DNA of 64,000 nt, from positions 1 through 64,000 of the forward strand of contig NZ_CABVQC010000002.1 in the NCBI RefSeq assembly GCF_902499175.1, written 5' to 3'. A program made the position numbers and the translations under genes. Position 1 is the first letter of the stretch; every line of letters begins with the position of its first letter. This DNA comes from Burkholderia aenigmatica (GTDB lineage: Bacteria > Pseudomonadota > Gammaproteobacteria > Burkholderiales > Burkholderiaceae). The notes under the pieces are model-generated. The model was not told the origin of the DNA, ran no database searches, and saw only the letters and a program-made list of their open reading frames with translations. Below are positions 15,875-47,190 of the stretch, one piece after another.

Positions 15875-15966
15875 GGCGGGGCTCGCTGACAGGCGCCCGG
15901 CGGGCGCGGAACGGGTTCGATTCTGCCGGCGGCGCGCATGCCGTCGTTTGACCGTTGCGCAAGTGC

Positions 15967-16041: not shown

Positions 16042-16125
16042 TGGTTGAGCATCGATCGATGTTCGCCGGGCGCGAACGCCGTCATGATCGCCGTCATCGA
16101 CACCACGATTTCATCGGAGACAGCC

Positions 16126-17316: not shown

Positions 17317-17340
17317 GAAGCGGAAACAGGAGCAGACAAC

Positions 17341-18303: not shown

Positions 18304-18325
18304 ACAACGAACCGGAGCGAATTTC

Positions 18326-18709: not shown

Positions 18710-18940
18710 CCGTCGGCGCAGCGCCGGCCGTATCGCGTGCCGCAGGAGCGCGTCGGTGCGGTCGCATGCCGCGCCGATCTCCCGCCGAAAACGGACAGCC
18801 GGATTCCGCGCTCGCCGATTCCGGATAGCCGGCCCGTGGCACGCTGCGGATAATGCGTCCATCGGCGACCGAGAGGCCGCCTTCGCACCGGACGCGACGC
18901 TTGCGTCCGCGCTTTCCGCAACCCGACCAGGCGATTCCCG

Positions 18941-19804: not shown

Positions 19805-19864
19805 TCGGCGCTAGGCCGCCGCGCTGACGGCATGCGCCGGCGCTGCCTTCCCAGGACCCACGAC

Positions 19865-30876: not shown

Positions 30877-31258
30877 CGTGTCTCCTGATTATCGATACGC
30901 CGTGGCGCGTGGCCCGGCCGTTCGCGACCGGCGCACTGCACCCGGCCGCACGACGTGGCGGCAGGCACCGCAAGGCCCATGAAAGGGCCGGACAGGCGGG
31001 CTGTACCGATCGTCCGGCACATGGTGGGCAAATCCGCGGCACGTGATAATTGCGGATGTTTCAAGCATCCTTTCCTGTGCAGAAAGGGTGCGGAACACGC
31101 GGCGGCCGGCATGGCCGCGGCAGGCCCGTGCAGCCTGCGTGGCGTGCGTTGACGCCCCGGATCCGGTTGCGCTTGCGCGCCACCGGCAGGCCGGGAAAAC
31201 CATGAGCGCCGTTGCGTGACCGCCGGCGCAACAGCCGCCGGCGGCCAGGCCCGCGTGG
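30877..31258. promoter_or_regulatory. 382-bp intergenic region with CCTTTC/GAAAGG dyad
   Basis: This lies upstream of the MFS gene and downstream of prfH (both minus). No gene is seen. Arms GCATCCTTTC (31065-31074) and GAAAGGGTGC (31082-31091), with one mismatch and a 7-nt spacer, form a likely operator about 190 bp from the MFS start. Weak resemblance to the dyads at 15967-16041 is noted. Confidence 0.5.
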
Positions 31259-31873
31259 TCAGTCAGCCGGCACGAACGCCGCCCCGTAAAACACGCGCAC
31301 GGGGTTGCCGCGCTCCAGCGCAAAGTGCTGCATGCGCCGCTGCCGGCGTGCATCGGACGCGTGACGGTCGGCTTCCTGCTGCAACCGCACCTGCAGCAAC
31401 TGCAGCGCCAGACGCTTGTTCGCGTGCTGGCTGCGCTCGCTTTCCACACGCACCGACAGGCCGGTCGCGACATGGGTCGCACGAATCGCGGAGCTCGTCT
31501 TGTTGACGTGCTGGCCGCCGGGCCCGCGTGCGCGCATCGCCTCGAACCGCACATCGCCATCCGGCAGCGGCTGTGCGTCGGCACAGCGCGTGACGCCGAT
31601 GAACCAGTTCTTGCGTGGATGGCGCAACCGGTACGGGCTCGCGCAAATCCATTGCAGCGTGCCCGTCCAGCGGTCGGCAAGCGCGTGTGCGCCAGCGCCG
31701 TCGAGATCGAGCAGCGCCGAGCGCAGCGTGCCGGGCCGTTCGCCCTGCTGCGCATCGAGCACCGTGACGACAACGCGCTGCGCATCGGCTTCCGCCTGCA
31801 GGCGCTGCAATGCGTTGGCCGCCGCGAGCTGGCACTCGAGCGGGCCGTGCGCCGAAGAAATCTGCATCAGCAT
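31259..31873 (-). CDS. prfH: PrfH, GGQ peptide-chain-release-factor homologue
   Basis: 204 residues, much shorter than RF1/RF2 (about 360). The catalytic GGQ (119-121) sits in ARGPGGQHVNKTSSAIRATH. The N-terminal ~100 residues lack the stop-codon recognition domain. The C-terminus is basic (DARRQRRMQHFALERGNPVRVFYG). PrfH paired with RtcB2 is known as a ribosome-repair pair: PrfH hydrolyses peptidyl-tRNA on ribosomes whose 16S rRNA has been cut at the decoding centre, and RtcB2 reseals the RNA. The start overlaps the end of rtcB by 7 bp, so they are translationally coupled. Confidence 0.9.
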   Translation of the reverse strand: MLMQISSAHGPLECQLAAANALQRLQAEADAQRVVVTVLDAQQGERPGTLRSALLDLDGAGAHALADRWTGTLQWICASPYRLRHPRKNWFIGVTRCADAQPLPDGDVRFEAMRARGPGGQHVNKTSSAIRATHVATGLSVRVESERSQHANKRLALQLLQVRLQQEADRHASDARRQRRMQHFALERGNPVRVFYGAAFVPAD

Positions 31874-33015
31874 CGGTCAGCCTCCGCGGACGTCTTGTAG
31901 GTCAGCACCGGCGCGAGCCGCGCGAGCTTGCGCAGCAGGCCGGCCGCCTCGAGCGCGTCGACGACGCTGTCGATCGGCTTGTAGGCCTGCGGCGCTTCCT
32001 CGTACAGCAGTTCGCGGTCTTCGCAGATCACGTGGCTGCCGAGCGGCGTGCGCGTGAGCTGCGACGGCGTGAAGCGCCGTTCGAGGCGCTCCTTGCAATC
32101 GCCGCGTGCCCACTTGCGGCCCGCACCGTGCGCAAGCGACGCAAGGCTGGCCGCATCGTCCGGCCGTACCGGGGCGACGAGGTAGCTGTAGTCACCGCGC
32201 GACCCGGGAATGACGACCGGCCCCGCATCGGCCGGCGTCGCACCTTTGCGATGCAGCCAGCCCGGCTCGCCGTCGACGCTCGCGCGGCTCACCAGGTTGT
32301 GGTTCACATCGAGCACGCACTGGCCGTCGGTACGCCAGCGCGCCAGCATGCGCCGCGCGATCAGGTCGCGATTCGCGACCGCATAGCGCAACGCCGCATC
32401 GTGACGCGCGAGGTACGCGGTGCAGGCGGCATCGGTATCGTCGAGGCCGTTGTAGCCGTGCTCGCGCATGTGCTGCTCGAGGATCGACTGGCCGAAGCCG
32501 CGCGACCCGCTGTGCACGAGCAGCAGCAGACGGTCGCGGTCGAGACCGAGCGCCTGGACGGCATCCGCGTCGTACACCGCGTCGATCCGCTGCGCCTCCG
32601 CGAAATGATTGCCGCTGCCGATCGTACCGAGCGACGCCGCGAACGCGTGATCCGCGAAGCCGGCGGCCGCAATGCACGGCTGCCAGCTGGCATCGGGCGT
32701 GGCGTCGATCGAGCCGAGCCGGCTCGCGAGCTTCGACGCGCTGACGCGCCGCGCGTCGAGCGCGGTTTGCCACAGCGCCATCCCGCAGCCGATATCGCCG
32801 CCGATCAGCGCCGGATACAGCCGGCCCGTCGAGAAGAACGCAGCGCCGACCGGGTAGCCGCGTCCAGGATGAAGATCGGGCATGCCGGCGACGCGCCGCA
32901 TGCCGGGGAGGGTGGCAGCGTGTTCGAGCTGCCGGATCGCCTCACCTTCGATCCAGGTGGTGGCACAAGCGCACAGCGTGATGTGCTTGGCCAGGTATTG
33001 CATGGAATTGCCCAT
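31867..33015 (-). CDS. rtcB2: RtcB-family RNA ligase, PrfH-associated type (RtcB2)
   Basis: 382 residues, shorter than housekeeping RtcB and typical of the PrfH-linked type. Metal and active-site elements are GGDIGCGM (D74, C77), GSGNHF (134-139), HSGSRGFG, and HGAGR with the probable guanylate-accepting His296. RtcB joins 2',3'-cyclic-phosphate or 3'-phosphate RNA ends to 5'-OH ends using GTP and Mn2+. Start: ATG 33013-33015 (GGAAA upstream). Met5 is an alternative. It is followed by prfH and preceded by a ~230-nt leader with a small ORF and three hairpins. Confidence 0.92.
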   Translation of the reverse strand: MGNSMQYLAKHITLCACATTWIEGEAIRQLEHAATLPGMRRVAGMPDLHPGRGYPVGAAFFSTGRLYPALIGGDIGCGMALWQTALDARRVSASKLASRLGSIDATPDASWQPCIAAAGFADHAFAASLGTIGSGNHFAEAQRIDAVYDADAVQALGLDRDRLLLLVHSGSRGFGQSILEQHMREHGYNGLDDTDAACTAYLARHDAALRYAVANRDLIARRMLARWRTDGQCVLDVNHNLVSRASVDGEPGWLHRKGATPADAGPVVIPGSRGDYSYLVAPVRPDDAASLASLAHGAGRKWARGDCKERLERRFTPSQLTRTPLGSHVICEDRELLYEEAPQAYKPIDSVVDALEAAGLLRKLARLAPVLTYKTSAEADRC

Positions 33016-33062
33016 GGAGGTTTCCGTTCGATGAAAAGGAAGAACGGCGGGCCATGGCGCAG

Positions 33063-33155
33063 GCAGCGCACAGATGCGCTGCCCGACATCGGAAGTCGGG
33101 AAGAGGGCGGCACGAACGGATCGGAACGACCCGGCTCATCGCCGTGATGGCGATG
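33063..33155 (-). promoter_or_regulatory. three perfect hairpins in the rtcB2-prfH leader
   Basis: Stem 1: GCAGCGCA 33063-33070 with TGCGCTGC 33075-33082 (8 bp, 4-nt loop). Stem 2: CCCGAC 33082-33087 with GTCGGG 33095-33100. Stem 3: CATCGCC 33137-33143 with GGCGATG 33149-33155. They lie between the 12-codon leader ORF and the rtcB2 start, the arrangement of an attenuator. Function is inferred. Confidence 0.55.
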
Positions 33156-33207
33156 CGTGGTGCTGCTTGGCGTGAACGATGAAACGAACGGACGCGAAAA
33201 ACCCGAA

Positions 33208-33246
33208 CTACGACCCGCGACGGGAGGAGTGTTGGCGTGACGTCAT
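33208..33246 (-). CDS. 12-codon leader ORF upstream of rtcB2
   Basis: ATG at 33244-33246 with a near-ideal AAGGAGA about 8 nt upstream, the best ribosome site in this stretch. The peptide is MTSRQHSSRRGS, then TAG. It is Ser/Arg-rich, and tandem Arg and Ser codons could slow translation. It lies ~190 nt before rtcB2 with three hairpins between. A regulatory leader peptide is the best reading, not yet supported beyond position and ribosome site. Confidence 0.5.
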   Translation of the reverse strand: MTSRQHSSRRGS

Positions 33247-33290
33247 GATTTTTTCTCCTTGCGAGTGAGGGGTTGATCGGAATGGCGGCG

Positions 33291-33320
33291 ACTCTAGCAT
33301 GCTCGCGACGGTCGCAGCAA
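33291..33320 (-). promoter_or_regulatory. putative sigma70 promoter of the rtcB2 leader
   Basis: On the minus strand, TTGCTG (33315-33320) and TAGAGT (33291-33296) are separated by 18 bp. Transcription would start near 33284, about 40 nt before the leader ORF. No sigma54 -24/-12 site of the kind that drives E. coli rtcBA was found. Confidence 0.45.
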
Positions 33321-33476
33321 GCGGGCAGCGCAGCGCTGTCCATCGAATCGCCGCTCGATGTTGCGAAAAACACACACATAGGAATCCGGATCATTCCCTC
33401 GTCGATGTCGCGCACGACGCGCCGTAGCAGGCATACCGCGTACGCAGACAGCCGCCACGGATGTGCCCAACCACGC

Positions 33477-33505
33477 TTGACAGCGCAAAAGCCGTTTCGT
33501 AGCAT
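33477..33505 (+). promoter_or_regulatory. putative sigma70 promoter of the RNA ligase gene
   Basis: TTGACA at 33477-33482, 17-bp spacer, TAGCAT at 33500-33505. A perfect -35 with optimal spacing. It implies a ~240-nt 5' leader before the ligase ATG at 33750. Between 33016 and 33749 no gene other than the leader ORF is supported. Confidence 0.55.
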
Positions 33506-33749
33506 CCGCCTGCTTCATCCCTGAACCCTCATCGAATCGGTGATCCAAGTGCCCGCAAACATTCGTCCCTTCGCCTGATACGCCGACGACTGCCGTCCCG
33601 GCCGCGTGTCGTCCTGCCCCGTTTCCGCCTGCCTCGCAGCGCCGGAACGTCGATCGCAGGAACGCGCCCGGACCCGCACTGACACCGCAACGCACACCCC
33701 ATCGTTCGTTCACGTCGTCGGCTTTTTCCCCTGTTTCCGGAGAAAGACC

Positions 33750-34619
33750 ATGACGCTGGATTTTCGCGCCTACGCGCAATCGCTCGACCTCGCCCGCTAC
33801 CCGCGCACGCCGCATCTCGAAGGCTCGCGCCTGCAGGACGGCGACGAAGGTCACGACCACGTTCCCTATCGCACCCTCGCGGGCGCCCATCTCGTCGTCG
33901 AGGAAAAGCTCGACGGCGCGAACACGGGCATCAGCTTCAGCCCCGCGGGCGAACTGCTGCTGCAGTCGCGCGGCCACTACCTGGCCGGCGGCGGCCGCGA
34001 GCGGCAGTTCGGGTTCGTGAAGACCTGGGCGGCCGCCCATGCCGGCTGGCTGCTCGATCGCCTCGGCGATCGCTACGTGATGTACGGCGAGACGATGAGC
34101 AAGAAGCACGCGGTGTTCTACGACGCGCTGCCGCATCACTTCTTCGAATTCGACGTGTTCGACCGCGCGACGGGCCGCTTCCTGTCGACGCCCGCGCGTC
34201 GCGCGCTGCTCGCCGACGGGCCCGTGCTGTCGGTGCCCGTGCTGTACGAAGGCATCGCGCCGGCGCGGCTCGCGGACCTGAAGGCATTGCTCGGCCCGTC
34301 GCTCGCGAAGACGCCGGACTGGCGTCGCGCGTTCGAGGAAACGGTGCGGCGGCAGGGGCTCGACCTCGCGCGGGCATGGCAGCAGTGCGACAAGTCGGAG
34401 CGCTCCGAAGGGCTCTACGTGAAGGTCGAGACGGACGACACGACGACCGCGCGCCTGAAGTGGGTGCGCCACGATTTCGTGCAGGCCATTCTCGAATCGG
34501 CGCGCCATCACTCGGAGCAGCCGTTCATCCCGAACCAGCTCGCGCCGGATGTCGACCTGTATGCGCCGCGCCCGACGGTCACGTGGGCATCGAACCCCGC
34601 TGCGCAGCCGAACCAATGA
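33750..34619 (+). CDS. ATP-dependent RNA ligase (Rnl family)
   Basis: 289 residues from the ATG at 33750 (CCGGAGAAAG upstream). The nucleotidyl-transferase motifs are present: motif I EEKLDGAN with lysine nucleophile K53, motif III-like RYVMYGETM, motif IV SEGLYVKVE and motif V ARLKWVRHDF. It would seal 3'-OH/5'-phosphate RNA ends, the ends produced by an HD-Pnk healing enzyme. Accordingly an HD-Pnk gene begins 41 bp downstream (interrupted, then supplied again by the inserted element). Divergent rtcB2-prfH gives the locus a second, different ligation chemistry. Confidence 0.88.
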   Translation: MTLDFRAYAQSLDLARYPRTPHLEGSRLQDGDEGHDHVPYRTLAGAHLVVEEKLDGANTGISFSPAGELLLQSRGHYLAGGGRERQFGFVKTWAAAHAGWLLDRLGDRYVMYGETMSKKHAVFYDALPHHFFEFDVFDRATGRFLSTPARRALLADGPVLSVPVLYEGIAPARLADLKALLGPSLAKTPDWRRAFEETVRRQGLDLARAWQQCDKSERSEGLYVKVETDDTTTARLKWVRHDFVQAILESARHHSEQPFIPNQLAPDVDLYAPRPTVTWASNPAAQPNQ

Positions 34620-34660
34620 ATGCGGAACGGCCGAGCGCCGTTTCGAGAGGAGTCTTGATC

Positions 34661-34813
34661 ATGAAGTACGAACAACTGCAGGCGCTCGTGCCTGCGCCCG
34701 GCCGGCAGCCGGACTATCGCGCGTGCCTCGCGGCGTTTCCCGCGCTCGAACACGCGAAGACGACCCCGCAGGAGCCTGCGCATCACGCGGATGCCCCCTT
34801 CCGAGGCAACTAA
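34661..34813 (+). pseudogene. 5' fragment of resident HD-Pnk gene, split by element insertion
   Basis: It starts MKYEQLQALVPAPGRQPDYRACLAAFPALEHAKTTPQ with a good GAGAGGAG ribosome site. This matches the first ~36 residues of the complete HD-Pnk at 34897. After about residue 43-45 it runs into element sequence and stops at codon 51, before the HD domain. The missing part resumes near 41806. Base composition switches from high GC to AT-richer at about 34790-34815. Confidence 0.85.
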
Positions 34814-34824
34814 TAACAACAAAT

Positions 34825-34873
34825 CAAGGCGCTACAGACAGTTGGGTAACTATTTTTCCAACTATTCGCCTTG
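34825..34873. other. nested inverted repeats at the element's left end
   Basis: Outer arms CAAGGCG 34825-34831 / CGCCTTG 34867-34873; inner arms AGTTGG 34840-34845 / CCAACT 34858-34863. It lies in the 83-bp gap between the broken resident gene and the element HD-Pnk. It could be a recombinase-binding end or an RNA hairpin in the leader. Confidence 0.5.
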
Positions 34874-34896
34874 GTCTCCCAATTTCGAGGTGGACC

Positions 34897-36054
34897 ATGA
34901 ATTGGAATGATATAAGGATGCTCGTGCCGGTCAACGGGGCCGCGCCGGACTTCGATGCATGTCTGGAGGCGTTCCCCGCCCTGGAGTTTGCCAAAAAGAC
35001 GTTGCAAGGCCGCTTCCACCTGGAGGGGAGCGTGTGGGTGCACACCCAGCTTGTAGTGAACGAACTCCTTGCGCTGGCTGACTACCAGGCTGCCACACGA
35101 GCGGACCAGGAAATCCTGTTCCTTGCTGCGCTGCTGCATGACATCGCGAAATACAGCACGACGGTTATCGACCCGGTGACAGGTAACATCAGCCAGCCGG
35201 GCCACTCGCGCAAGGGTGCCATCGACGCGCGCATCGCCTTGTGGGACGCCGGCACGCCGTTCGACGTGCGCGAAGCCATCTGCCGTCTCGTTTCCGTGCA
35301 CCAGGTGCCGTTCCACGCGTTCGAGCAGCGCGCCAGTCGCGGCCCGGATGACCAGCACAAGACGAAGACGCCGGAGTTCCGCGTGCGCCAGTTGTCGTGG
35401 CAGGTCGACCTGCGACTGCTCGCGACGCTCGCGGAGGCCGACATGCGCGGCCGGATATGCGATGACAAGCAGAAGGTGCTCGACAACATTGAGCTGTTTC
35501 GCGAACTCGCGCGCGAGGAACGCTGCTATGGCCAGCCACGCTCGTTTGCGGACGCTCACACTCGCGTGAGCTACTTCCGGGGAGCTGACGTGCACCCGGA
35601 CTATCCGTTGTTCCAGGAAGCGGGGTCGAAGGTCGTCGTCATGTCCGGGTTGCCTGCCTCCGGCAAGAACACGTGGGTCTCGAAGCATCATCCCGGACTG
35701 CCGGTCGTGTCATTCGACGACTCCCGCGAAGAACTTGGCCTGCGTCATGGCAAGAACGAGGGGATGGTCGCGCACCATGCGGTCAACAAGGCGAAGGACC
35801 TGCTTCGAGCGAGCACGCCGTTCGTCTGGAATGCGACGAACACTGGTTCGCAGCTGAGGGAGAAGGCACTGAGCCTGCTCTATGCCTATCACGCCGAGGT
35901 CGAAGTGGTGTATCTCGAGCGGCCACGGGCGGAGCTTTTCTCGCGCAACACGCGGCGCGACACGTCGCTCACAAACAAGGGCATCGAGTCGATGCTGCTG
36001 AAGTGGGAGCCGCCGCTGCCGACTGAAGCCCATGCCATCACTTATCTCGCGTGA
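34897..36054 (+). CDS. HD-Pnk: HD-domain phosphoesterase / 5'-OH polynucleotide kinase (element copy, intact)
   Basis: 385 residues from the ATG at 34897 (CGAGGTGG upstream). Residues 45-200: HD domain with HTQ (49-50), HDIAKYS (H81, D82), GHSRKGAID and VHQVPFH. Residues 245-385: P-loop kinase with GLPASGKNTW (251-260), SFDD (probable general-base Asp), FVWNATNT, and RRDTSLTNKGIESMLLKWE as lid. HD-Pnk enzymes characterised in Runella remove 2',3'-phosphates and phosphorylate 5'-OH ends, readying breaks for an Rnl-type ligase. The RNA ligase gene is immediately upstream of the insertion. The protein is close to the resident copy (41791-42825) but clearly diverged, with less GC-biased codons, so it arrived with the element. 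Confidence 0.88.
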   Translation: MNWNDIRMLVPVNGAAPDFDACLEAFPALEFAKKTLQGRFHLEGSVWVHTQLVVNELLALADYQAATRADQEILFLAALLHDIAKYSTTVIDPVTGNISQPGHSRKGAIDARIALWDAGTPFDVREAICRLVSVHQVPFHAFEQRASRGPDDQHKTKTPEFRVRQLSWQVDLRLLATLAEADMRGRICDDKQKVLDNIELFRELAREERCYGQPRSFADAHTRVSYFRGADVHPDYPLFQEAGSKVVVMSGLPASGKNTWVSKHHPGLPVVSFDDSREELGLRHGKNEGMVAHHAVNKAKDLLRASTPFVWNATNTGSQLREKALSLLYAYHAEVEVVYLERPRAELFSRNTRRDTSLTNKGIESMLLKWEPPLPTEAHAITYLA

Positions 36055-36055
36055 A

Positions 36056-36091
36056 ACGCCTCCCGCCGTCATGAAGATAGGCGAGAGGCGT
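36056..36091. terminator. hairpin after the element HD-Pnk gene
   Basis: ACGCCTC 36056-36062 pairs with GAGGCGT 36085-36091, extended inward by CGCC 36064-36067 / GGCG 36080-36083. It starts 2 nt after the stop codon. No U-run. Confidence 0.5.
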
Positions 36092-36185
36092 GCGAGAGCT
36101 TGAGCCCCCGCCCTTGCGACGGTTGCAGGCCTTGGACATCAGCCGGCAGTTTGACAAGATTGTCGGTGGGCGGCGGCGTCCTAAC

Positions 36186-36836
36186 TCACGAGCCTTGCAG
36201 CAACTTCTCGAGCGCTTCGACCTCGGCCTTCTCAAGGAGAACGGTCTTCGTGGTTGCCTGCCGCAGTCGCCCCTTGGCCAGCTCAAGACCGCATGCGCGA
36301 AGCCGCTCTTCGTCGAAAAGAACTGCGATGACCTTGACCAGTTCAGGGGACACGGCCTGTACACCGACGGGCGCAGCATCGGCTCGCGGCGCAGACAGTG
36401 TGCCTCGAATCAGGTCGTCCACGGATATGCCGGGGATTTTTCGCAGACCGGCCTGAATTCTGGTTCGGTCGGCGACCGCCTGGTCGCGCTCTTCCTTCAG
36501 AAGTTGAACATACGCACGCAGCGACTCGTCAGCAATCTCGGGCTCAGAGGATTGCTTGGGGCGTTCGCGAAACTGCTGACCCGATTGCCGGACCAGTAGG
36601 TAGCGCATCAGAACGTCTTTCGAGTTTCGAATCGACTGCGCTTTCGGCCCATCCCAATCCCGGTCAAGGCAATAGCGTTCGACGGTCGTGGGCGAAATCT
36701 TCATCTTGTGCGCGTCAAGGTAGTCGCACGCCGCTTTGATGCGTTCCAGGGTAATGCGTTGGCGGGGATTCGTCGCCTGCTCCAGCAAGGCTTCGTAGGT
36801 GCCTTCCAGGGTCTCTTCAAGGTCAAGGGTGCTCAT
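36186..36836 (-). CDS. gmtX: GmtX-like small partner protein of the recombinase trio
   Basis: 216 residues. The start overlaps the end of gmtZ by 4 bp (ATGA). Residues 20-75 (NPRQRITLERIKAACDYLDAHKMKISPTTVERYCLDRDWDGPKAQSIRNSKDVLMRYLLVR) look like an HTH. A coiled coil follows near 105-130 (AYVQLLKEERDQAVADRTRIQAGL). This is the layout of TnpC/GmtX proteins, thought to guide or regulate the two recombinases. The assignment rests mainly on position in the trio, size and HTH-plus-coil layout. Confidence 0.72.
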   Translation of the reverse strand: MSTLDLEETLEGTYEALLEQATNPRQRITLERIKAACDYLDAHKMKISPTTVERYCLDRDWDGPKAQSIRNSKDVLMRYLLVRQSGQQFRERPKQSSEPEIADESLRAYVQLLKEERDQAVADRTRIQAGLRKIPGISVDDLIRGTLSAPRADAAPVGVQAVSPELVKVIAVLFDEERLRACGLELAKGRLRQATTKTVLLEKAEVEALEKLLQGS

Positions 36837-39800
36837 GCGAAGGTCTCTTCGTTGTTATGGGTGAGGGTCTGCTCGTTCTCGCCGAGCGACAGCAGCTCGG
36901 ACTGAAGGGCGAGAAGCTCCCCGGTGTCGGTGGCCGTCTCAAGCGCTTTCAGCTTCTCGGTCAGTTGAGGGTACGCACTCAGCTTGGTACGGCCGGACAG
37001 AACGTCGTCGAGGTCGCGATGCTTGACCTGCTGCAACAGAAGAGCCGACAAGAGGTTTCCGGCTTCGTGGGCGTGCTCATCCGAAAGCGTCAGCAGGAAC
37101 GGCTTAACCCCGTTTGCGGCCAACATCCTGGAAAGGATGGTGTTTTTTTCCAGCTCAGCTTCACGATTGCGAAAACCCGTGACGAAATCGGCCATTTGCG
37201 TGATTTGGTCGAGCAGTGCGAATTCATGCGCTTCCTCGAGGGTCACCTTCAGCTCGGATGCCGTCCCGGCCGTCAGCAACGGAACAGGCAGGTTGTCGCC
37301 GTCCACCTTGGCTTTGGCTTCCAGGTAAGCATTAAGCTGCGAGACCGACTGCTCCGCGTAGCGGTACCGGGCCGTCCACTCTTCGATGTCGATAGCCAAC
37401 TCGCGATTGAGAACATCAACGCGGTCGCGAATCTGCCGCGCGTTCTTTTGATTCCCCACGTCCTCGGCATCGAGCCGCTCATCATTCAACTGGGCCACCT
37501 CGAGCCCCTTCTTCCGGATGGTGTAAGCGAGGTTGTTGACGGCTGCGACCTGGCCGAGCAAATGCGCAGGGCCGGTAATCCAATACCGGCAGAGCCCGCA
37601 GCGCTGGCCTCCCGGGACCGGGCCGTGCTGGACGCGCGTCGAGTCGAGCGGGCCGCCGGTGCTGCACGAAGTACCCGGGCAGATGCCCTCCGACGTGATG
37701 GTGATGATGCCGGTCTTCTCTCGCAACGCGCCGAGCCCGGGGCCCTGGCCAGCACCTTCTTGCCCAAGGAGGTAGGGAGCAAAGGCGTCGAGGTTCTGCA
37801 TGAACGACTCGGAACCCACGAAGTCGACGTTTTCCGACGCTTTCTCGTGGGCCTCTTTCAGCATTTTCTGCAGCTTCAGCGGGGAGTAGCGGAGGTAGTG
37901 CAGGGTCATGACCAGCGTCGTGTGCCCGGCGACGAACTGGGACACGACCTCGAGCGGCACGCCGCTCTCAATCATGGCGGTGATGCCACTGACTCGTAGT
38001 GTGTGCAGGTCGACGGCCCATTTCAGCTCGCCGTTTTCATCTTCCGACACCAGTTGGATGTCGTGACCATGCTTGCGTTTGATGCGCTCCTGCACTTCGG
38101 CCAAGGCATTGGTGTAGAAGGTTGCGAGGCGGTCATAGGTGATGGGCGCGTCGTGGCGGTTCTTCGCCGGGTCCCGGAAAATCGGGGTGACCTGAGGCCC
38201 CTTTGCCTGGATTCGCTCGCGCTCTTCAGCACTGTGCTTTTCGCCGTAGTATGGAATGGGGGCAGCCATTGGCGTGTTGTACCGTTGTTGCCACGCGCGC
38301 ATCATCTTGAGATAGGACACGAGCTGGTCGGAAACATACGGGATGCTGTAGCCGGGCTCGACTTCGTCATATTTCGCCGTCTTGTTCGTGTTCACCCAGA
38401 GCCCGAACCAGTCGGTCTTGCGCAGGGCATCATGCTGGAGGCGCAGGACAGCCTCGCGGCGACCGGCGATGGCATGCACAGAGGCGTTTTTAACCAGCCG
38501 GTTTGTGCTGGCCTCGTACACGAGCTCGTCCAGCTCGCCTGAGTCCATCCAACGAGCCTGGTGCGAACGGATGGGCGCTTCCAGCATCAGGTACAGGCAG
38601 ACCGTTGCAGCAGGAAACCAGACGCGCACAGGTTTCCCGGTCGTGTTGTCCAGCACCCGAACGTAGTGCGAGCCATGGGATTTTCCGAACGCGAAGTCAT
38701 CGTCGATGAGCAGGGACTTCATCTCCTCGATAACATAGCTGGGCAGCGCGTTTCGTGCCGTCTGTCCGCGACTGTTGCGGCCGCCTTTGCCGAGGGTATC
38801 GGTCGTGAGGATAGGATTCTTGAAGGTGGCGGCTTCCTCAGCTCCTGTTGCCAGCAGGTAGTCGGCGTACCAATCGAGAAACCTTCGCAGTAGCGACAGC
38901 GCGGCGCTCGCAGCGCTCTTTTCCAGGCGTTTGCGGAGATATTCGCTGTAAGTAGCGTCGTTGGTTAGCGTTGCGTCGTAAATGTGTCGCGGCCGGTCCA
39001 GCTCCAACGGACTCCCGGGGGGATTTTCGAGCGAAAGCAAGAAGTCGGCGAAATGGTTCAGTCGGGAAACCTGCCCGGCGATACGCGCGGTAGTCAGTTG
39101 CCCCACGTACCGGCGCATCAGGTCTCCCCAACCTGACAGCTCGGGCGAAGCGACACCCAGCCAAAGAAACTCGCCGCTCGTTTTAACCAGTTCTGCGGGC
39201 TTTGCGGCTTTCGATGAACGTGTCTGCGTCCTCGCGACGGCCAGGGCTGGATGGGCTTGATTGAACAATAGCCGGAAGACCTGCGCAGTACGTGTGACGA
39301 AGCTCTTTGCGCTATGTAGCGCGTTACCCTCCAACTGCTCAGTCTCCGCCATCAACGCGGCTTCGTAAGCGTCAATCAACTCCAGCGACAGTTCGCCGGC
39401 AAGCGTCAGGCTGCTCGCAGTGAGCAGGCCATAGGTGCGGCTCTGGAATTCGGAAGTGTCCGTTCCACGAAGGGCCTCTGTAACGAGCTTGACGAGAGGC
39501 GCCTTGTCGCCCGTATAACGGTCGTTTCGCAGGACCTCCCATTTTTGCCGTACCGTCCAGGCCCGAAACCCGGCGGGGAACAGGATGTAGTTGCGGGCCC
39601 ACAGCATGTACATCAGCTCGAGATAACGGGGCGCGTGATAGGGCGGATTTCTCAGGCCCCGGAGCGCTTTGGCCAGATGGTGCACAAACGACTGCGGAGT
39701 CCCGGCTTCGGCCAGCATCTCGCGAAAGTCAGGCGCGAATGCCGGAGGACTGTAGACAAGAACGCCGGCCAGCTCCGAACGCGACGCCGGCAGCACAGCC

Positions 39801-40159
39801 ATCACCCGTTCGCGCTGTTCCGCCAAGGGCAACCGTCGAAGGTACGAATTTAGCTCTGCCCCCTTGAGCGGCCGTCCCGCGACACGTTGCAGCGCGTTGC
39901 TTTGCAGATATGCGGGTGCCGGGTGGCCCTTCGGGTCCCTTCTAGTCTTGAACGCTACAATCCAGCTTCCGCGTTCATCTTCTGCTAACAGCGAGTGCTC
40001 CCAGAACTCACGGGTCCGGATGCGCTCGTGCTCCGCTATGACGTCGAGCAGTCGTTGCTCGGTCAGCTCAGGCGCAACGTGAACCAAGTCCGGCGACAGG
40101 TTCAGGAGAACCTCGGCCTGAGCGCCTGGGCACGGGAAGGTGAAAAGTGAATTGAGCAT
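36833..40159 (-). CDS. gmtZ: GmtZ-like large tyrosine recombinase
   Basis: 1108 residues, three times a normal integrase. A long N-terminal region (1-470) of unknown fold includes a core-binding-like segment near 345-440. The catalytic domain has Arg531 (LEAPIRSHQAR), His719-x2-Arg722 (LHTLR), His746 (AGHTT) and probable nucleophile Tyr755 (HYLRYS). Behind it, near 850-895, is a Cys-rich patch (CPGTSC ... RCGLCRYW) that could bind zinc, then ~200 residues rich in heptads. GmtZ of Gamma-Mobile-Trio elements has this size and trio context. It acts with GmtY to move the element. Confidence 0.8.
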   Translation of the reverse strand: MLNSLFTFPCPGAQAEVLLNLSPDLVHVAPELTEQRLLDVIAEHERIRTREFWEHSLLAEDERGSWIVAFKTRRDPKGHPAPAYLQSNALQRVAGRPLKGAELNSYLRRLPLAEQRERVMAVLPASRSELAGVLVYSPPAFAPDFREMLAEAGTPQSFVHHLAKALRGLRNPPYHAPRYLELMYMLWARNYILFPAGFRAWTVRQKWEVLRNDRYTGDKAPLVKLVTEALRGTDTSEFQSRTYGLLTASSLTLAGELSLELIDAYEAALMAETEQLEGNALHSAKSFVTRTAQVFRLLFNQAHPALAVARTQTRSSKAAKPAELVKTSGEFLWLGVASPELSGWGDLMRRYVGQLTTARIAGQVSRLNHFADFLLSLENPPGSPLELDRPRHIYDATLTNDATYSEYLRKRLEKSAASAALSLLRRFLDWYADYLLATGAEEAATFKNPILTTDTLGKGGRNSRGQTARNALPSYVIEEMKSLLIDDDFAFGKSHGSHYVRVLDNTTGKPVRVWFPAATVCLYLMLEAPIRSHQARWMDSGELDELVYEASTNRLVKNASVHAIAGRREAVLRLQHDALRKTDWFGLWVNTNKTAKYDEVEPGYSIPYVSDQLVSYLKMMRAWQQRYNTPMAAPIPYYGEKHSAEERERIQAKGPQVTPIFRDPAKNRHDAPITYDRLATFYTNALAEVQERIKRKHGHDIQLVSEDENGELKWAVDLHTLRVSGITAMIESGVPLEVVSQFVAGHTTLVMTLHYLRYSPLKLQKMLKEAHEKASENVDFVGSESFMQNLDAFAPYLLGQEGAGQGPGLGALREKTGIITITSEGICPGTSCSTGGPLDSTRVQHGPVPGGQRCGLCRYWITGPAHLLGQVAAVNNLAYTIRKKGLEVAQLNDERLDAEDVGNQKNARQIRDRVDVLNRELAIDIEEWTARYRYAEQSVSQLNAYLEAKAKVDGDNLPVPLLTAGTASELKVTLEEAHEFALLDQITQMADFVTGFRNREAELEKNTILSRMLAANGVKPFLLTLSDEHAHEAGNLLSALLLQQVKHRDLDDVLSGRTKLSAYPQLTEKLKALETATDTGELLALQSELLSLGENEQTLTHNNEETFA

Positions 40160-40177
40160 TGGTGGTATTCGAGGCGC

Positions 40178-41581
40178 TCAAGCAAGAAGCGATAGCGCGG
40201 TTGGGGCTGCGAGGAGGTCTGGAGCCTCGAGGGCTTGTCGCTCCTGAGCGGCAAGCAGTTCTTTGCGCACGGCCTCGGCAGACAAGGCGTAGTAGATTTC
40301 CGTGGACATCACGCTCGCGTGATGCATCAGGCGCTGTGTCGTCTCGATGGGCAGCCGAAGCACGGAGGCACAGTAGAAGCCGTAGAAGTGCCGGGCACCG
40401 TGGGGATTGACGCCCGCCATGCTGGGAGACAGGGAAACACGCTCGGCTGCCCGGTTGAACGCCTTCGACATGTTCGACAGCTTTAGAGGTTGACCGTAGC
40501 TGTCGCCCTCCTTTTCGTTGACGAAGTAGTACGGATGGGTGTCGGGCAGCTTGCTGCGCACCGTCCGGATGTACTCGGCGTGCAGACGTGCGAACAGCCT
40601 GCCAGCATCTTCCCGCAGCCAGTGGACGACGGACTCGGACCGCTTCTTGTCATCGGCCATCATGCCTTTCCAGCCGGCGTGCAACGGATGCTTCTCAGCC
40701 AGCAGATTGCGCGGCGTGAGGCCGTACTTCTCCTGCAGGAAGGTGGCGCGGTTGCCGACCTTCTTCTTTCGGTCCCGGCCAATCCACTGGTAGCTCCCGT
40801 CCTGGGGGTGCCCGAGCACCACGCGCGCTGTCCCATCCGGCTGGATGCTGATGTCGGACGCAAACAGGTGCATCGGCTCAGAGATACGTACACCGCCGAA
40901 GAAGAGCAACAGCAGGTAAAGCTTGTCCCGCAACGACGGAGTCTTCAGGACGGCCTCCCATACCGTGTCCGGCGGGAAGTGCTTGTTGTCTGTGAAGGCT
41001 TTGTTCCGGTTGCCGCGCGCTGGGTCGAAAGCCCGACGCGTCACGATACCCTGAGCTTCATCTGACGCAGGTTCCAAGTGATGGAGCATGTCCCACTCTC
41101 TCCGCGAAGTACGCTTCATCTCGATAGTCTTCTGCTCCCGGAGATTGAGCTGCTCCACCAGCACGCGTTCTTTCGGATTGACAGGCGTGTGACCGAAATT
41201 GTTGGTGCACCACTCGGTAAAGTCGCTCACGGCGCGGACGTCCGCAGCAGCCGTCGCCACCTTGACCGCGTCCCATCCGAGAGATGCTCTTCCGAAACGG
41301 CGAGCCTCATAGAACTCTGCCAAAACCAGTCGCAACTGGTCCGCAGCGAGCGGGGCTCCGTTCCTCTCGAGCTGGTAGTAGTCGTAAAAGCGCCCGATGG
41401 CGGATACCGCCTTTGCGAGCGTCGAGGTCCCGCTGCCTTCTATGAGCATCTTGTTTCGTACCCACGCCAAGGCGAGGTAACTCAGTTCCCCGTCTTGCAG
41501 GAACAGGAAAGGGAGACTCATTCCAGGAACGCCCTCCTGAATGGGTATGTCGAGAATCGAGTGAACGGTGCGAATAGGCAT
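40178..41581 (-). CDS. gmtY: GmtY-like tyrosine recombinase
   Basis: 467 residues from the ATG at 41579-41581. The frame is open to 41653, but no upstream start has a ribosome site. TATACT just before this ATG could be a -10 for a leaderless message. Catalytic residues: Arg232 (GGVRISEP), His394-x2-Arg397 (NPHGARHF), His421 (MHHASV) and a Tyr at 430/431 (EIYYAL). The N-terminal half fits a SAM-like core-binding domain. First gene of the minus-strand trio, it ends 18 bp before gmtZ and lies next to the element's right end, as integrases often do. Confidence 0.82.
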   Translation of the reverse strand: MPIRTVHSILDIPIQEGVPGMSLPFLFLQDGELSYLALAWVRNKMLIEGSGTSTLAKAVSAIGRFYDYYQLERNGAPLAADQLRLVLAEFYEARRFGRASLGWDAVKVATAAADVRAVSDFTEWCTNNFGHTPVNPKERVLVEQLNLREQKTIEMKRTSRREWDMLHHLEPASDEAQGIVTRRAFDPARGNRNKAFTDNKHFPPDTVWEAVLKTPSLRDKLYLLLLFFGGVRISEPMHLFASDISIQPDGTARVVLGHPQDGSYQWIGRDRKKKVGNRATFLQEKYGLTPRNLLAEKHPLHAGWKGMMADDKKRSESVVHWLREDAGRLFARLHAEYIRTVRSKLPDTHPYYFVNEKEGDSYGQPLKLSNMSKAFNRAAERVSLSPSMAGVNPHGARHFYGFYCASVLRLPIETTQRLMHHASVMSTEIYYALSAEAVRKELLAAQERQALEAPDLLAAPTALSLLA

Positions 41582-41653
41582 CAAATAAGTATAAGAGTTA
41601 GGGGTGTATTTCAGAAAAGCTACCATGACCGAAAAGCAGTTGAACGGCGTCAA

Positions 41654-41790
41654 TGGTCCTTGACGAAATGCTGTTCTTTTCTATGCCCAGGCACTGTGAC
41701 ACCCTTTGAACTCTCCGCTTTCCGTTGGCTTTGTCCTCAATGAGGACTGAGCCGTGATAAACCATAGAACCTTGAACCCTGGACTAATAG
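41654..41790. other. right end of the element, with palindrome
   Basis: Non-coding. A 15-bp palindrome, GTCCTCA-A-TGAGGAC, lies at 41733-41747. ACTAATA at 41783-41789 repeats ACTAATA at 34809-34815 near the left end. AGTTGATTAA (41789-41798) partly matches AGTTGGGTAA (34840-34849). Any of these may mark the crossover site. Confidence 0.45.
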
Positions 41791-42825
41791 TTGATTAAGG
41801 TGCGGGTGGAGAACCACGGCGAAGGCGACGTGTGGACGCATACGATGATGGTGATCGATGCGCTGCTCGCGCTGCCCGAGTACCAGGCCGCGTCGCGCGC
41901 GGATCAGGAGATCGTGTTCCTCGCCGCGCTGCTGCACGACATCGCCAAGTACAGCACGACGGTCGTCGATCCCGATACCGGGGCGATCGGCCATCCCGGC
42001 CACTCGCGCAAGGGCGCAATCGATGCACGGATCGCGCTGTGGGATGCCGGCATGCCGTTTGCTGTGCGCGAGGCGATCTGCCGGATGATCGCCGTGCATC
42101 AGGTGCCGTTCTTCGCGATGAGCGGGTCGCGTCGCGGCACGCCCGAGTTCATCGCGCGCGAGCTGTCGTGGCAGGTCAGCCTGCCGCTGCTGTGCCTGCT
42201 CGCCGAGGCCGACATTCGCGGGCGCATCTGCGACGACACGCAGCGCGTGCTCGACAACATCGAACTGTTGCGCGAGCTGGCGCGGGAAGAGGGCTGTTAC
42301 GGCCAGCCACGCGCGTTTGCCGATGCGCACACGGCGCTCAGCTATTTTCGCGGCGCGGACGTGCATCCCGACTATCCGCTGTACCGCACGCCGGGCTCGC
42401 GGGTCGTCGTGATGTCGGGCCTGCCCGCGGCGGGCAAGAACACGTGGGTTGCGCGGCATCATCCGGATCTGCCGGTCGTGTCGTTCGACGATGCACGCGA
42501 TGCATTGGGGCTACGCCACGGCCAGAACGAGGGCGCGGTCGCGCACCATGCGGTCGACGCCGCGAAGGCGTTGTTGCGCGAACAGCAACCATTCGTGTGG
42601 AACGCGACGAACCTGTCGCCGCTGATGCGCAAGAAGACGCTCGACCTGCTGTTTGCGTACGGCGCCGACGTGACGCTCGTCTACCTCGAACAGCCACGCG
42701 CGGCGCTGCTGCGTCGCAACGCGCGGCGCGACACGTCACTGACGAATCACGCGCTCGAGGCGATGCTGCTGCGCTGGGATCTGCCGCTGCCCACCGAAGC
42801 GCACGCGGTGCGCTACGAAGTCTGA
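41791..42825 (+). pseudogene. 3' fragment of resident HD-Pnk gene with both catalytic domains
   Basis: The open frame runs 345 codons and aligns with residues ~40-385 of the element copy: VWTHT, HDIAKYS, GHSRKGAID, VHQVPF, GLPAAGKNTW, SFDD, RRDTSLTNHALEAMLLRWD. It lacks only the first ~45 residues. High-GC codon use matches the chromosome, not the element. A TTG (41791) or GTG (41800/41806) could start it, but no good ribosome site is seen, so expression is doubtful. No internal stop or frameshift has built up, meaning the insertion is recent or the fragment is still used. Confidence 0.82.
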
Positions 42826-42843
42826 TGCGACGCTGTCACCACA

Positions 42844-42883
42844 CGAGCCGGTACGCCGCACGTCATCGCGGCGTACCGGCTCG
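42844..42883. terminator. strong bidirectional terminator
   Basis: Perfect 16-bp stem, CGAGCCGGTACGCCGC (42844-42859) / GCGGCGTACCGGCTCG (42868-42883), with an 8-nt loop and TTTCATTT on the plus side. It ends the RNA-repair operon between convergent genes. Confidence 0.85.
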
Positions 42884-42885
42884 TT

Positions 42886-43569
42886 TCATTTCAGCGCCGG
42901 ATTCTGCTGCGTCGCGCAGGCGCGCAGCGCGGTGACGAGATCGGCCTTGCCCAGCTTGTCGAACAGGTCGGCCATCTCCATCTGCGCGACCGGGTCGCCT
43001 TCACGGGCCGCGCGCCAGCGCAGCGACGCGATCATCCCGCTCATGCCCTCGCCGGGCGTTTCGCCGTCGTAGCCCGACATCGCCTGCAAGACATCCGCGA
43101 GCTTGTTGTAGCCGGCCGGCACGTGATGAACGAGCAGCCACGCGATCGCAGGCTGCGCACCTTCCCAATCCTCGTCGTCGAGCGAACTGCTCGCCAGGCG
43201 GGCGGCCGCGCGCCATGAACCGAGCGATGCCGCCTTCGCATACGCGATGTCGGCTTCGCGGCCGCGCGGCGACGGCGCCGCGTCGAACGCGGCCTGGGCT
43301 TCGGCCGACGGCGGCGGCAACGCAAGCTTCGTGCAGCGGAACGCGCCCGCATCGGGCGCGTTGCCGGGCAGGTCGGCCCAGCGCACCTGATCCTTCAGCG
43401 CGCGATCGAGCGTGGGCCGCACGTCGCTTTCCTTCATCGACGCGAACACCCAGTCGGTCCGGACATGGCGCGCTGCGTCCCAGTCGCCTTCGGCGCAGGC
43501 GTGCTGCGCGAAGGCCAGGCAGGTGGCCACGCAGCCGATCCGGAACATCTTTCGGGCAGGGGATTTCAT
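42886..43569 (-). CDS. exported protein of unknown function
   Basis: 227 residues from the ATG at 43567-43569. A signal peptide (MFRIGCVATCLAFAQHACA, cleaved near residue 26) is followed by an alpha-helical body with many A-x3-A patterns: ADIAYAKAASLGSWRAAARLASS, IAWLLVHHVPAGYNKLADVLQ, RWRAAREGDPVAQMEMADLFDKLG. These recall Sel1-like repeats of periplasmic scaffolds. It lies 14 bp after a lipoprotein gene on the same strand, probably one operon. A longer frame reading through that gene was rejected. Confidence 0.72.
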   Translation of the reverse strand: MKSPARKMFRIGCVATCLAFAQHACAEGDWDAARHVRTDWVFASMKESDVRPTLDRALKDQVRWADLPGNAPDAGAFRCTKLALPPPSAEAQAAFDAAPSPRGREADIAYAKAASLGSWRAAARLASSSLDDEDWEGAQPAIAWLLVHHVPAGYNKLADVLQAMSGYDGETPGEGMSGMIASLRWRAAREGDPVAQMEMADLFDKLGKADLVTALRACATQQNPALK

Positions 43570-43583
43570 CGTGGATTCCGGTC

Positions 43584-44216
43584 TCAACTTGCCATGATGA
43601 TGAAGGTGGTGAGCGCGATCGGGAACAGGGCGAGGCCAAGCAGGCCCAGCGCGCCATCGGCCGCCATCGCGATCGGCGACAACGCCAGCTTGGCGCCGTG
43701 GCCGACGGCCGTCAGCTTGTCCGTCACCGTGACATGGTAAGGACGATTGAACGCCTGCGGAACCGACGAAGGCGTGACATCGTTCGGCAGATAGCGCTTG
43801 CCGCTGATCGTGCCTTCCGACGTCAGGTAGCCATGGTCCTTCTTGAAACCGTCCGCGAGCGCACGCTCGCGGACGTCGGAGCCGGTCGGCGCATCCGGGT
43901 AGTCCAGCCTCATTGTGTAGCGACCGGTGATCGCGTCGCCGTGCGTCTCGAAATCGTTGAACGCCGTGTGGATCTTGGGACGATAGGGCGCGGTGAGCAC
44001 CGTCGCGAGGCCCGGCGGCATCTCGAAGATGTAGTGATACTTCTGGCCGAGCACGACGAGTTGCTTGCCGTCCGCGGTAATCAGGAAGGTCGACAAGGTT
44101 TCGTCGTATTCCGAATCCTTCATCCACGCTTTCGTGGCGGGACCGAAATCGGCGCAGCCGGCGAGCATGCCGGACGCTGCCACGGCGGGCAGCGCGAGAA
44201 ATGTTCTTCTTTTCAT
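43584..44216 (-). CDS. lipoprotein of unknown function
   Basis: 210 residues. MKRRTFLALPAVAASGMLAGC is a lipoprotein signal with an RR-x-F-L start that could also be Tat-dependent. The lipid-bearing Cys is residue 21. The mature part ends in a hydrophobic segment (ALGLLGLALFPIALTTFIIMA), so a C-terminal membrane anchor is likely. Not recognised as a named family. It is divergent from a LysR regulator and followed by the exported protein gene. The frame extending to 45344 crosses that regulator and is a shadow. Confidence 0.72.
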   Translation of the reverse strand: MKRRTFLALPAVAASGMLAGCADFGPATKAWMKDSEYDETLSTFLITADGKQLVVLGQKYHYIFEMPPGLATVLTAPYRPKIHTAFNDFETHGDAITGRYTMRLDYPDAPTGSDVRERALADGFKKDHGYLTSEGTISGKRYLPNDVTPSSVPQAFNRPYHVTVTDKLTAVGHGAKLALSPIAMAADGALGLLGLALFPIALTTFIIMAS

Positions 44217-44453
44217 GAGTGCTGTTTTGGATGTTGTTCGTTTTTCAGCGGAACCGCTTGAATGTCGGACGCAGCGTTCGAGGAACGCGGCATCCTGACG
44301 GCCGGTCATGCGGTTACTTCGCCTGCGCATTGTAGGGCCAAAACCGCAAGTGCAGTATCCCCCGGGCCAAGCACCGCGCCGGCGTGCGGTAGACTGCTCG
44401 CTCGCTTGCCTGCCGCCCCTCACACGACCGTTTGCGCCCAGCCCGCCCAGACC

Positions 44454-45380
44454 ATGGATCGAATCGATGCGATGAAGGTGTTCGTCGCCACGCTGGACGA
44501 GGGCAGCCTCGCGGGCGCGGGCCGGAAGCTCGGCCGGTCGCCGGCGGCGGTCAGCCGCGCGATTGCATTCCTTGAAGAACATACGGGCACCGCGCTGCTC
44601 TACCGCACGACCCGGACGATCCGGCTGAGCGAGGCTGGCGAACGCTATGCGGCCGCGTGCCGCCGCATCCTGTCCGATCTCGAGGAAGCCGACATGCTGG
44701 TCGCCGACGAACGCTCGGCGCCGCGCGGCCTGTTGACGGTCACCGCGCCCGTCGCCGCGGGCGAAGACGTGCTGCGTGCGCTGCTCGACGAATTCATCGA
44801 ACGCCATCCGGCCGTGTCGATCCGCCTGCAGTTGCTCGACCGTCCCGTCAGCCTGATCGACGAAGGGATGGACGTCGCGCTGCGAATCGCGCACCTGACC
44901 GATTCGACACTGGTCGCGATTCCGGTCGGCGCGGTGCGCCGGGTCGTCGTGGCTTCGCCCGATTACCTGGCGCAGCATCCGGCGATCGAGACGCCGGCCG
45001 ATCTCGCGCAGCACCGGATCATCTCGATGACGCATTTCGGCCTCGATTCGTGGAGCTTTCCGCCGTCCACGCCAGCGGCACTGCCACAGGTCGTCCCGTT
45101 CACGCCGCGCTTCATCATCAACACGATCCGCGGCGCGGTTGCGTCGGCCGTCGCCGGGCACGGCGTCACACGGCTCTTTTCGTATCACGTCGCCGAACCG
45201 GTACGGGACGGCACGCTGCGGATCGTGCTGCGCGACAGCGAGCACGCGCCGTTGCCGATCCATCTCGTCACGCCTTACGGACGCCTTTCGGTGCCGAAGG
45301 TGCGCGCATTCGTCGATTTCGCGGCGCCGCGCCTGCGCGAGCACTTCGCGCGGCTGGCGGCCATCACCGACGGCGATTGA
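44454..45380 (+). CDS. LysR-family transcriptional regulator
   Basis: 308 residues. HTH: MDRIDAMKVFVATLDEGSLAGAGRKLGRSPAAVSRAIAFLEEHTGTALLYRTTRTIRLSEAG. The effector domain begins near 90. This is the broad group that controls adjacent efflux or oxidoreductase genes. It could regulate the divergent lipoprotein operon or the MFS exporter 280 bp downstream. The start is the first Met in a typical position. Upstream in-frame Mets (44262) give an atypical extension. Confidence 0.88.
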   Translation: MDRIDAMKVFVATLDEGSLAGAGRKLGRSPAAVSRAIAFLEEHTGTALLYRTTRTIRLSEAGERYAAACRRILSDLEEADMLVADERSAPRGLLTVTAPVAAGEDVLRALLDEFIERHPAVSIRLQLLDRPVSLIDEGMDVALRIAHLTDSTLVAIPVGAVRRVVVASPDYLAQHPAIETPADLAQHRIISMTHFGLDSWSFPPSTPAALPQVVPFTPRFIINTIRGAVASAVAGHGVTRLFSYHVAEPVRDGTLRIVLRDSEHAPLPIHLVTPYGRLSVPKVRAFVDFAAPRLREHFARLAAITDGD

Positions 45381-45497
45381 ACCGGGACGCGGAAGAATGG
45401 CTTTCGCGTGACGAGGATTCTCCCGGGATTCGACTCAATCTAGACTTCCTTCAACCGATGGACGCGCATGGCGTCCGTTCAGCGAATGGAGGTCAAC

Positions 45498-45662
45498 ATG
45501 CATCAAGCGCTTCCCGACCCGCGTCGCGCCCGTGCGGCCGGACTGACGCACCGCGTGGTGTCCGCTATCGGCATTGCCCGGTTCGCATGCGTGCCGCTGC
45601 CGGCGAGCTTCGCCGCGCAGGGCTTTCCCGCACCGATGACCGTGACGGCGAGGCTGCCATGA
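45498..45662 (+). CDS. 54-codon ORF translationally coupled to the MFS exporter
   Basis: ATG at 45498 has a strong GGAGG 6 nt upstream. The stop overlaps the start of the MFS gene (ATGA). The product is Ala/Arg-rich (MHQALPDPRRARAAGLTHRVV...) with no recognised domain. It may be a leader whose translation opens the exporter's start. It may not be a functional protein. Confidence 0.45.
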   Translation: MHQALPDPRRARAAGLTHRVVSAIGIARFACVPLPASFAAQGFPAPMTVTARLP

Positions 45663-46915: not shown

Positions 46916-47190
46916 CGGCTGGCCGGCGGATCGCGGGCTGGCGTAGGATGGGCGCAGTTGCGGAGGCGCGCGCCGGGAAGCGGCGACGACGTACGCGTTC
47001 ACCGCGCATCGCGGACGCCGCAGTCGCAGACACTGCATCGCACGACGGCGCATCGTTTTCGACATCGCTTTCACGTGACCGGTTGCGCACCAAGCACGAC
47101 GAACGCGCACCGATCCGAACCCGACCCACGCGTTTCGGCCCGCATCCGGCCGAAGCATTTCGATGACGGATCTTGCAGGAGGCAAGCAAC

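Follow-up and report, generated by a model that had tools for sequence, protein, structure and literature searches.

The window is a 64,000-nucleotide stretch of Burkholderia aenigmatica DNA (GCF_902499175.1, contig NZ_CABVQC010000002.1, positions 1-64,000; genome G000). It contains a small RNA-repair locus in which an RtcB-family gene lies divergent from an RNA ligase gene and its partner, the resident gene of the HD-Pnk family. A second HD-Pnk, the cargo, is encoded within an insert. HD-Pnk enzymes combine an HD phosphoesterase with a 5'-OH kinase activity. The features of the locus are as follows.

31867-33015, divergent from the RNA ligase and HD-Pnk genes: RtcB-family gene, part of the small RNA-repair locus
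33750..34619, + strand: RNA ligase (PF09414, E 6.9e-33), partner upstream of the resident HD-Pnk
34661..34787, + strand: resident HD-Pnk 5' piece, 42 codons and then out of frame; aligns with element-free relatives up to 34787
34784..34787, + strand: CACG, left copy of the junction repeat
34788-41814: insert, 7,027 bp, plus one CACG copy, between the resident HD-Pnk halves
34788..34896, + strand: left end of the element; its CCCCC...CAACTAATA box repeats the right end in inverted, imperfect form
34897..36054 (stop included), + strand: cargo HD-Pnk, intact, 385 aa, with the junction motif QGRFHLEG, unlike the residents
36186..36836, - strand: GmtX-like protein, 216 aa (NF040692, 33.3 bits, cutoff 40)
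36833..40159, - strand: GmtZ-like integrase, 1108 aa (NF047926, 334 bits, cutoff 600; PF13009)
40178..41653, - strand: GmtY-like tyrosine recombinase, 491 aa (NF040693, 236 bits, cutoff 340; PF00589)
41654..41814, + strand: element right end, whose reverse complement reads GTTCTCCACCCG...CAACTATT; common to related elements
41815-41818, + strand: CACG, right copy of the junction repeat
41815..42825, + strand: resident HD-Pnk 3' piece, an open frame with HD and kinase motifs that starts with the right CACG copy
42843..42884, + strand: strong hairpin after the resident gene, a possible operon terminator (-43 kcal/mol, z -10.9)

The resident HD-Pnk gene is split after codon 42 by the 7.03-kb insert. 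A sequence-only reading of this DNA had described a split HD-Pnk gene, two copies of it and a recombinase trio, and all of these were confirmed, with resident pieces at 34661-34787 and 41815-42825 and the trio and the 385-aa cargo between them. Its coordinates for the break were correct to within a few bases, but its count of 43-45 codons was not. The lower-GC segment of about 7 kb that it had noticed measures 7,027 bp, with a GC fraction of 0.602 inside versus 0.682 (30000-34787) and 0.686 (41815-48000) outside, and the single intact, diverged HD-Pnk lies at 34897-36054 on the + strand, in the same orientation after the broken 5' end, as it had stated. The alignment with element-free relatives that it had proposed revealed empty sites in eight of eight and fixed the junction at CACG, which occurs twice in the filled site and once in each empty site. 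None of these eight relatives is cut at the junction; seven encode an intact 377-aa HD-Pnk and in one the gene is broken elsewhere. The sequence CACGGCGA is present at the junction in 12 of 13 intact residents of the genus and is lacking in L032. Precise ends, a short direct repeat and empty sites in relatives are the features by which a site-specific integrative element is recognized, and all of them were found here.

The two ends of the insert repeat each other imperfectly in inverted orientation and contain a CAACTATT-like box, and the GmtY-side terminus, GTT[AC]TC..CCC..CAACTATT, is common to related elements sitting in other genes; this end structure and the repeats fit a tyrosine-recombinase element. 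The cargo starts 109 bp inside the left end, preceded by a ribosome-site-like GAGGTGG, and is oriented like the interrupted gene. The right end gives the resident 3' piece an in-frame GTG at 41806, so that the broken resident might still be made in part. This GTG is kept in a second genome with such an insertion (G032, below), where the AAGG ahead of it reads GAGG.

The three trio genes are all open frames, and the other ORFs of at least 80 aa listed inside the insert overlap the trio and cargo genes. GmtY matches NF040693 over profile positions 16-441 of 441 (E 9e-70, below the cutoff of 340) and GmtZ matches NF047926 over positions 6-784 of 784 (below the cutoff of 600). Because the matches to the NCBI GmtX, GmtZ and GmtY models are near-full-length but below the curated cutoffs, the trio is called gamma-mobile-trio-like. 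P0279, which is 54% identical to the GmtX of the window, is named gamma-mobile-trio GmtX by NCBI. The trio genes are adjacent and in the order Y-Z-X in the window, in G032 and in loci L042-L050, and this order defines the gamma-mobile-trio (GMT). In the GmtY alignment the His, Arg and Tyr columns are invariant, and the named GmtY relatives obtained by protein search are mostly from beta-proteobacteria and Pseudomonas.

Cargo and resident both possess HD and AAA_33 kinase domains, and the HD-Pnk domains and motifs present are PF01966, PF13671, LLHDIAK and GLPASGKNTW. The cargo is 69-73% identical to the residents of the genus.

The genus survey covered 65 genomes, with HD-Pnk counted at E 1e-30 or better. 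The gene was found in 16 of them: intact in 13, cut by a trio element in two and cut elsewhere in one. At the same threshold it is absent from 49 genomes, one of which, G036, holds a short remnant; HD-Pnk is thus not essential in the genus, and since most genomes lack the gene, a selective advantage of its restoration is not evident. In G023 a Tn3-family transposon interrupts HD-Pnk near codon 26 and there is no second copy; another kind of element thus breaks this gene and leaves it without a replacement. A gene of the 34897 type without the trio was seen in none of the 65 genomes. In both genomes with a close GmtY (that of the window, and G032 with 89%) this gene lies within HD-Pnk and is accompanied by HD-Pnk cargo; the remaining four GmtY matches of the survey (E 1e-20) are 29-35% identical.

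The second insertion is that of Burkholderia sp. LMG 13014 (G032, NZ_CAJNKE010000138), in which a trio element with HD-Pnk cargo occupies the same nucleotide as in the window, with the same gene order and the same cargo orientation at the entry side. An intact copy of the broken gene, the 385-aa cargo HD-Pnk, is carried in both insertions. The sequence-only reading had named as support many insertions at one codon, each bringing its own HD-Pnk; G032 is such a case, but instead of "many" there are two genomes in which the site is known at the DNA level.

Protein searches extended the comparison to 120 of 1,342 HD-Pnk relatives, 111 GmtY and 120 of 121 GmtX entries. Among the matches listed, five HD-Pnks (P0113, P0114, P0147, P0149 and P0171) have a longest contig equal in length to that of a GmtX entry, and three of the five also share their length with a GmtY entry. 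For four of them the lengths are 81,960 bp (P0114, with P0003), 12,860 bp (P0147, with P0006), 46,103 bp (P0149, with P0012) and 16,614 bp (P0171, with P0238). Under a jitter of up to 2% in length, 0.46 such links are expected, and no draw out of 2000 exceeded 4; the five links are circumstantial and carry no information on the insertion site. P0113 is identical to the G032 cargo and is therefore not a new element. The links suggest that HD-Pnk is a stable cargo. The identities of HD-Pnk and GmtX covary (Spearman 0.77 over 15 non-independent pairs), as expected if the two travelled together. Five HD-Pnk-associated GmtYs fall within a 9-row tree group (SH-aLRT 80), apart from the GmtYs that target glutamate synthase. 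P0002 in this group is a near-copy of the GmtY of G032; for P0004, P0005 and P0009 no HD-Pnk partner was found among the 120 of 1,342 relatives listed, nor for P0236, a GmtX with 81% identity whose Paraburkholderia caribensis contig measures 163,611 bp. In the HD-Pnk tree, a check that had been suggested, the element copies stand apart from the residents, but the smallest supported clade with the window cargo also includes P0115, which lacks a trio link, is nearest to the element clade and has the long form of the junction motif described below.

Searches of viral contigs with GmtY and GmtZ gave no match; six HD-Pnk relatives were found there, and the trio was absent near the three inspected, within the available stretch. 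Among plasmids, GmtY occurs in two records only, both distant (28.6-39.4%), and HD-Pnk in 18 records, all below 60% identity. Of 399 genomes of the order, two have GmtY at E 1e-60, that of the window among them, and 12 have HD-Pnk, with no further double copy. HD-Pnk was found in 18 of 398 genomes of the family at E 1e-100 and, at E 1e-60, in 1 of 16 (g176), 3 of 60 (g28) and 0 of 144 (g30).

Besides G032, ten further GmtY-like loci were located in named genomes. L042-L050 (GmtY 47-57%) contain all three trio genes and no HD-Pnk in the available stretch, and L051 (GmtY 29%) is a rearranged array. At least five distinct loci end inside a glutamate-synthase-like gene at the GFMFA codons (L043=L074, L044, L045=L075, L050=L077 and L076, the equalities being inferred from coordinates or peptide), and in L049 a terminus-like match falls within a gene of acyltransferase/AMP-binding type, at a distance of 3.9 kb before gmtY. 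PADLOC, applied to the cargo of six loci, gave a strong PsyrTA-type match in L042, a strong Hachiman-type (HamB-like) match in L044, a RecD-like helicase match in L043 and L045, and no match for L047 and L048. Self-comparison of L042-L050 revealed no split-and-copied target in the available stretch, beyond which the cargo ends may lie. In Paraburkholderia (g30 above; genus assigned by coordinates, G841 matching L043) HD-Pnk was found in 0 of 144 genomes at E 1e-60 and GmtY in 4 of 144 (47-55%). The targets of related trio elements are thus conserved coding sites, and a replacement copy was seen as cargo in the clade of the window alone. Since the distant cousins have other targets and other cargo, target replacement is a trait of this clade and not of all trio elements; the proposal made from the sequence alone fails for the cousins (GmtY 47-57%), with their unrelated targets and no HD-Pnk in the available stretch, and holds in its main points for the clade of the window.

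At the cut site the residents of the genus read Q-E-P-A-[HY]-H-[GR]-E-G, a long form kept in 13 of 13 intact residents. All six element-associated HD-Pnks read QGx[YF]H[LR]EG, which is one residue shorter, versus 17 of 114 other HD-Pnks with the QG form and no trio link among the matches listed (Fisher p 2.8e-5, relatedness not removed). At the DNA level, the identity of the cargo to the 13 residents over the 30-bp site is 0.39 (window) and 0.49 (G032), the gene-wide cargo-resident identity is 0.69-0.70, and residents share 0.89 among themselves. The difference at the site amounts to 0.27-0.57 in 14 comparisons of recoded with long forms versus 0-0.36 in 14 long/long control pairs, which were picked by the analyst from the tree; in two comparison pairs with P0203, 109-110 of 368 alignment windows are as different as the site. 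The sister rows P0127 and P0133 differ by 6% overall and in 27% of the columns at the site.

From these comparisons we infer that the changed codons would shield the cargo from its own recombinases, a form of self-immunity, by keeping them off the cargo copy. The residues H, EG, W and HT, kept in all aligned cargo-type proteins, would stay despite the recoding. That the changed motif is instead drift or a subfamily trait is possible, though somewhat doubtful. It would account for the 17 unlinked HD-Pnks with the same form, and the element copies are diverged throughout, with 12 and 24 of 377 alignment windows as low as the junction site or lower and the lowest point near residue 150. Against drift, an HD-Pnk tree built without the motif columns, in which 53 of 144 inner branches are weak, requires at least 11 gains or losses of the form, with nearly the same one-residue-shorter QG motif at the exact cut site, and the QG form is absent from 29 of 29 further HD-Pnk genes in the genomes examined. 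Whether the element family spreads by allele replacement, attacking a single conserved coding site, breaking the host's RNA-repair gene and supplying a self-immune recoded version, a long-standing companion of its recombinases, on which the host comes to depend, we regard as an evenly balanced question.

The preferred reading of the locus itself is that an integrated element, likely mobile by means of its trio-like recombinases, has cut HD-Pnk and that its own HD-Pnk takes over, which we consider probable. GmtY and GmtZ, with GmtX, are predicted to join the element ends to a ..CA(T/C)CACGGCGAAGG.. site inside HD-Pnk. The cargo would then be transcribed from the host promoter of the RNA-ligase/HD-Pnk genes in place of the resident gene. 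Such read-through is expected because the sole forward promoter-like match within 33400-42900 lies ahead of the RNA ligase (33477-33505); promoter-like sites numbered two versus 1.6 expected by chance and terminator-like sites eight versus 7.9. Excision would restore the resident gene, and the host would thus have HD-Pnk in either state.

HD-Pnk might instead be cargo of the usual kind, useful for fitness or defence through RNA repair, in which case its resemblance to the target would be a matter of chance or a by-product of site preference, with no replacement. The defence genes carried by related trio elements (PsyrTA-like in L042, Hachiman HamB-like in L044) and the many genomes of the genus without HD-Pnk (49 of 65) are in keeping with that explanation, which is nevertheless unlikely: in both insertions the cargo is placed directly at the entry side and points the same way as the target, and it is the sole cargo gene, diverges in step with GmtX, differs from the target at the junction and matches no PADLOC model.

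The insertions in the window and in G032 are best read as independent events in which diverged elements entered at the same nucleotide. Between the two, dS is 0.11 for the RNA ligase and 0.10 for the resident 3' piece on the flanks, versus 0.57 for the cargo, 0.74 for gmtX, 0.94 for gmtZ and 0.79 for gmtY in the element. A single insertion in the common ancestor of both Burkholderia species, followed by faster evolution of the element than of the flanks, would explain the identical site and gene order, and the resident 3' pieces, still open in both genomes, have a dN/dS of 0.19 versus 0.05-0.11 in 14 other pairs, which indicates some relaxed constraint. It is nonetheless very improbable, since element dS is 5-9 times that of the flanks on both sides and the low dN/dS of the element genes (0.08-0.11; cargo 0.095) argues against loss of constraint, the excess divergence reflecting age and not decay. 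The two HD-Pnk copies side by side might also be taken for a tandem duplication or a separate horizontal gain followed by an unrelated trio insertion, but wherever the gene is intact (13 genomes) a second copy is lacking, two genomes have cargo plus trio jointly enclosed by the gene halves at an identical nucleotide, and the empty sites of the relatives rule out tandem duplication as the cause, which leaves this explanation hardly credible.

Where integrative elements insert into a tRNA or protein gene, they often rebuild its end and so limit the damage. Several known systems resemble the element, which we read as probably replacing its target gene. GMT islands (Mahata et al. 2024, Nat Microbiol 9:3268), as represented by NCBIfam models and citing papers, likewise hold GmtY, GmtZ and GmtX homologues side by side, and some related elements carry defence cargo; the window element differs in that its three proteins fall below the NCBI equivalog cutoffs, its host is Burkholderia and its one cargo gene is a copy of the target. 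Two identical GMT islands at different places are reported for Vibrio in the available text of PMC12039261. GInt islands (Bardaji et al. 2017, PMC5385486) are similar in having several recombinases and a small protein, site-specific insertion, cargo and imperfect direct repeats at the ends, and 6-nt staggered cuts have been proposed for them. As far as the accessible part of that report goes, they are set apart by description, with a four-gene ginABCD operon, and a whole target gene as cargo is not described. SXT in prfC and IMEs in dusA (PMC8409611) compensate the interrupted host gene, as is predicted for the window element, but according to the portion of that source available they give the resident a promoter and a new N-terminus, whereas the window element carries a complete diverged paralogue. 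As with HD-Pnk enzymes, the resident of the window follows an RNA ligase gene; unlike known HD-Pnk genes, the cargo copy is carried by an element and deviates at the very motif into which that element inserts. Literature searches yielded no description of such target replacement, on which the primary GMT paper may say more. What is new is the whole substitute differing at the insertion motif, together with an apparent lasting link to the recombinases, and not the recombinases themselves.

If this reading is true, outright exchange of a host allele is within the reach of a mobile element, which thereby gains a built-in reason to be kept. The changed insertion motif in a cargo gene would provide a simple signature for finding other target-replacing elements. 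No solved structure similar to the cargo was found by sequence at E 0.001; its predicted structure, of moderate confidence (mean pLDDT 73), has a helical N-terminal part and an alpha/beta C-terminal part.

The right end of the element in the window hands a short stretch to the remainder of the gene that it splits:

Window, 41800-41815: right end of the element, which provides AAGG and an in-frame GTG for the 3' part of the split HD-Pnk gene.

In the second element of this kind, that of Burkholderia sp. LMG 13014, the GTG is retained and AAGG is replaced by GAGG. The related trio elements at L043, L044, L045, L050 and L076, hosted by Paraburkholderia, Ralstonia and one Burkholderia-named strain, have their end point in a glutamate-synthase-like gene, at the same codons (GFMFA[VL]). 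Defence genes were found as cargo of trio elements:

L044 (Ralstonia), 16654-19818: Hachiman HamB-like gene.
L042 (Pseudomonas), 16435-19880: PsyrTA-like genes.

On a Magnetospirillum contig (L051, a single 8.8-kb record), GmtX/GmtY/GmtZ-like genes are duplicated and rearranged (1395-8126).

In genome G023, a transposon interrupts HD-Pnk near codon 26, with a 5-bp repeat (ATTTC), and no substitute HD-Pnk copy was found in that genome:

L078 (G023), 10089-16446: Tn3-family transposon with TnpA (PF01526) and a tyrosine recombinase with DUF3701.

A congener otherwise without HD-Pnk (G036) retains a remnant of 66 residues, 69% identical (L014, 1501-1695). HD-Pnk was detected in none of the 144 Paraburkholderia genomes examined. 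The matches listed nevertheless include HD-Pnks of Paraburkholderia strains UCT31 and EG287A (P0115 and P0118; 82-87% identity to the window's cargo), which are possibly mobile.
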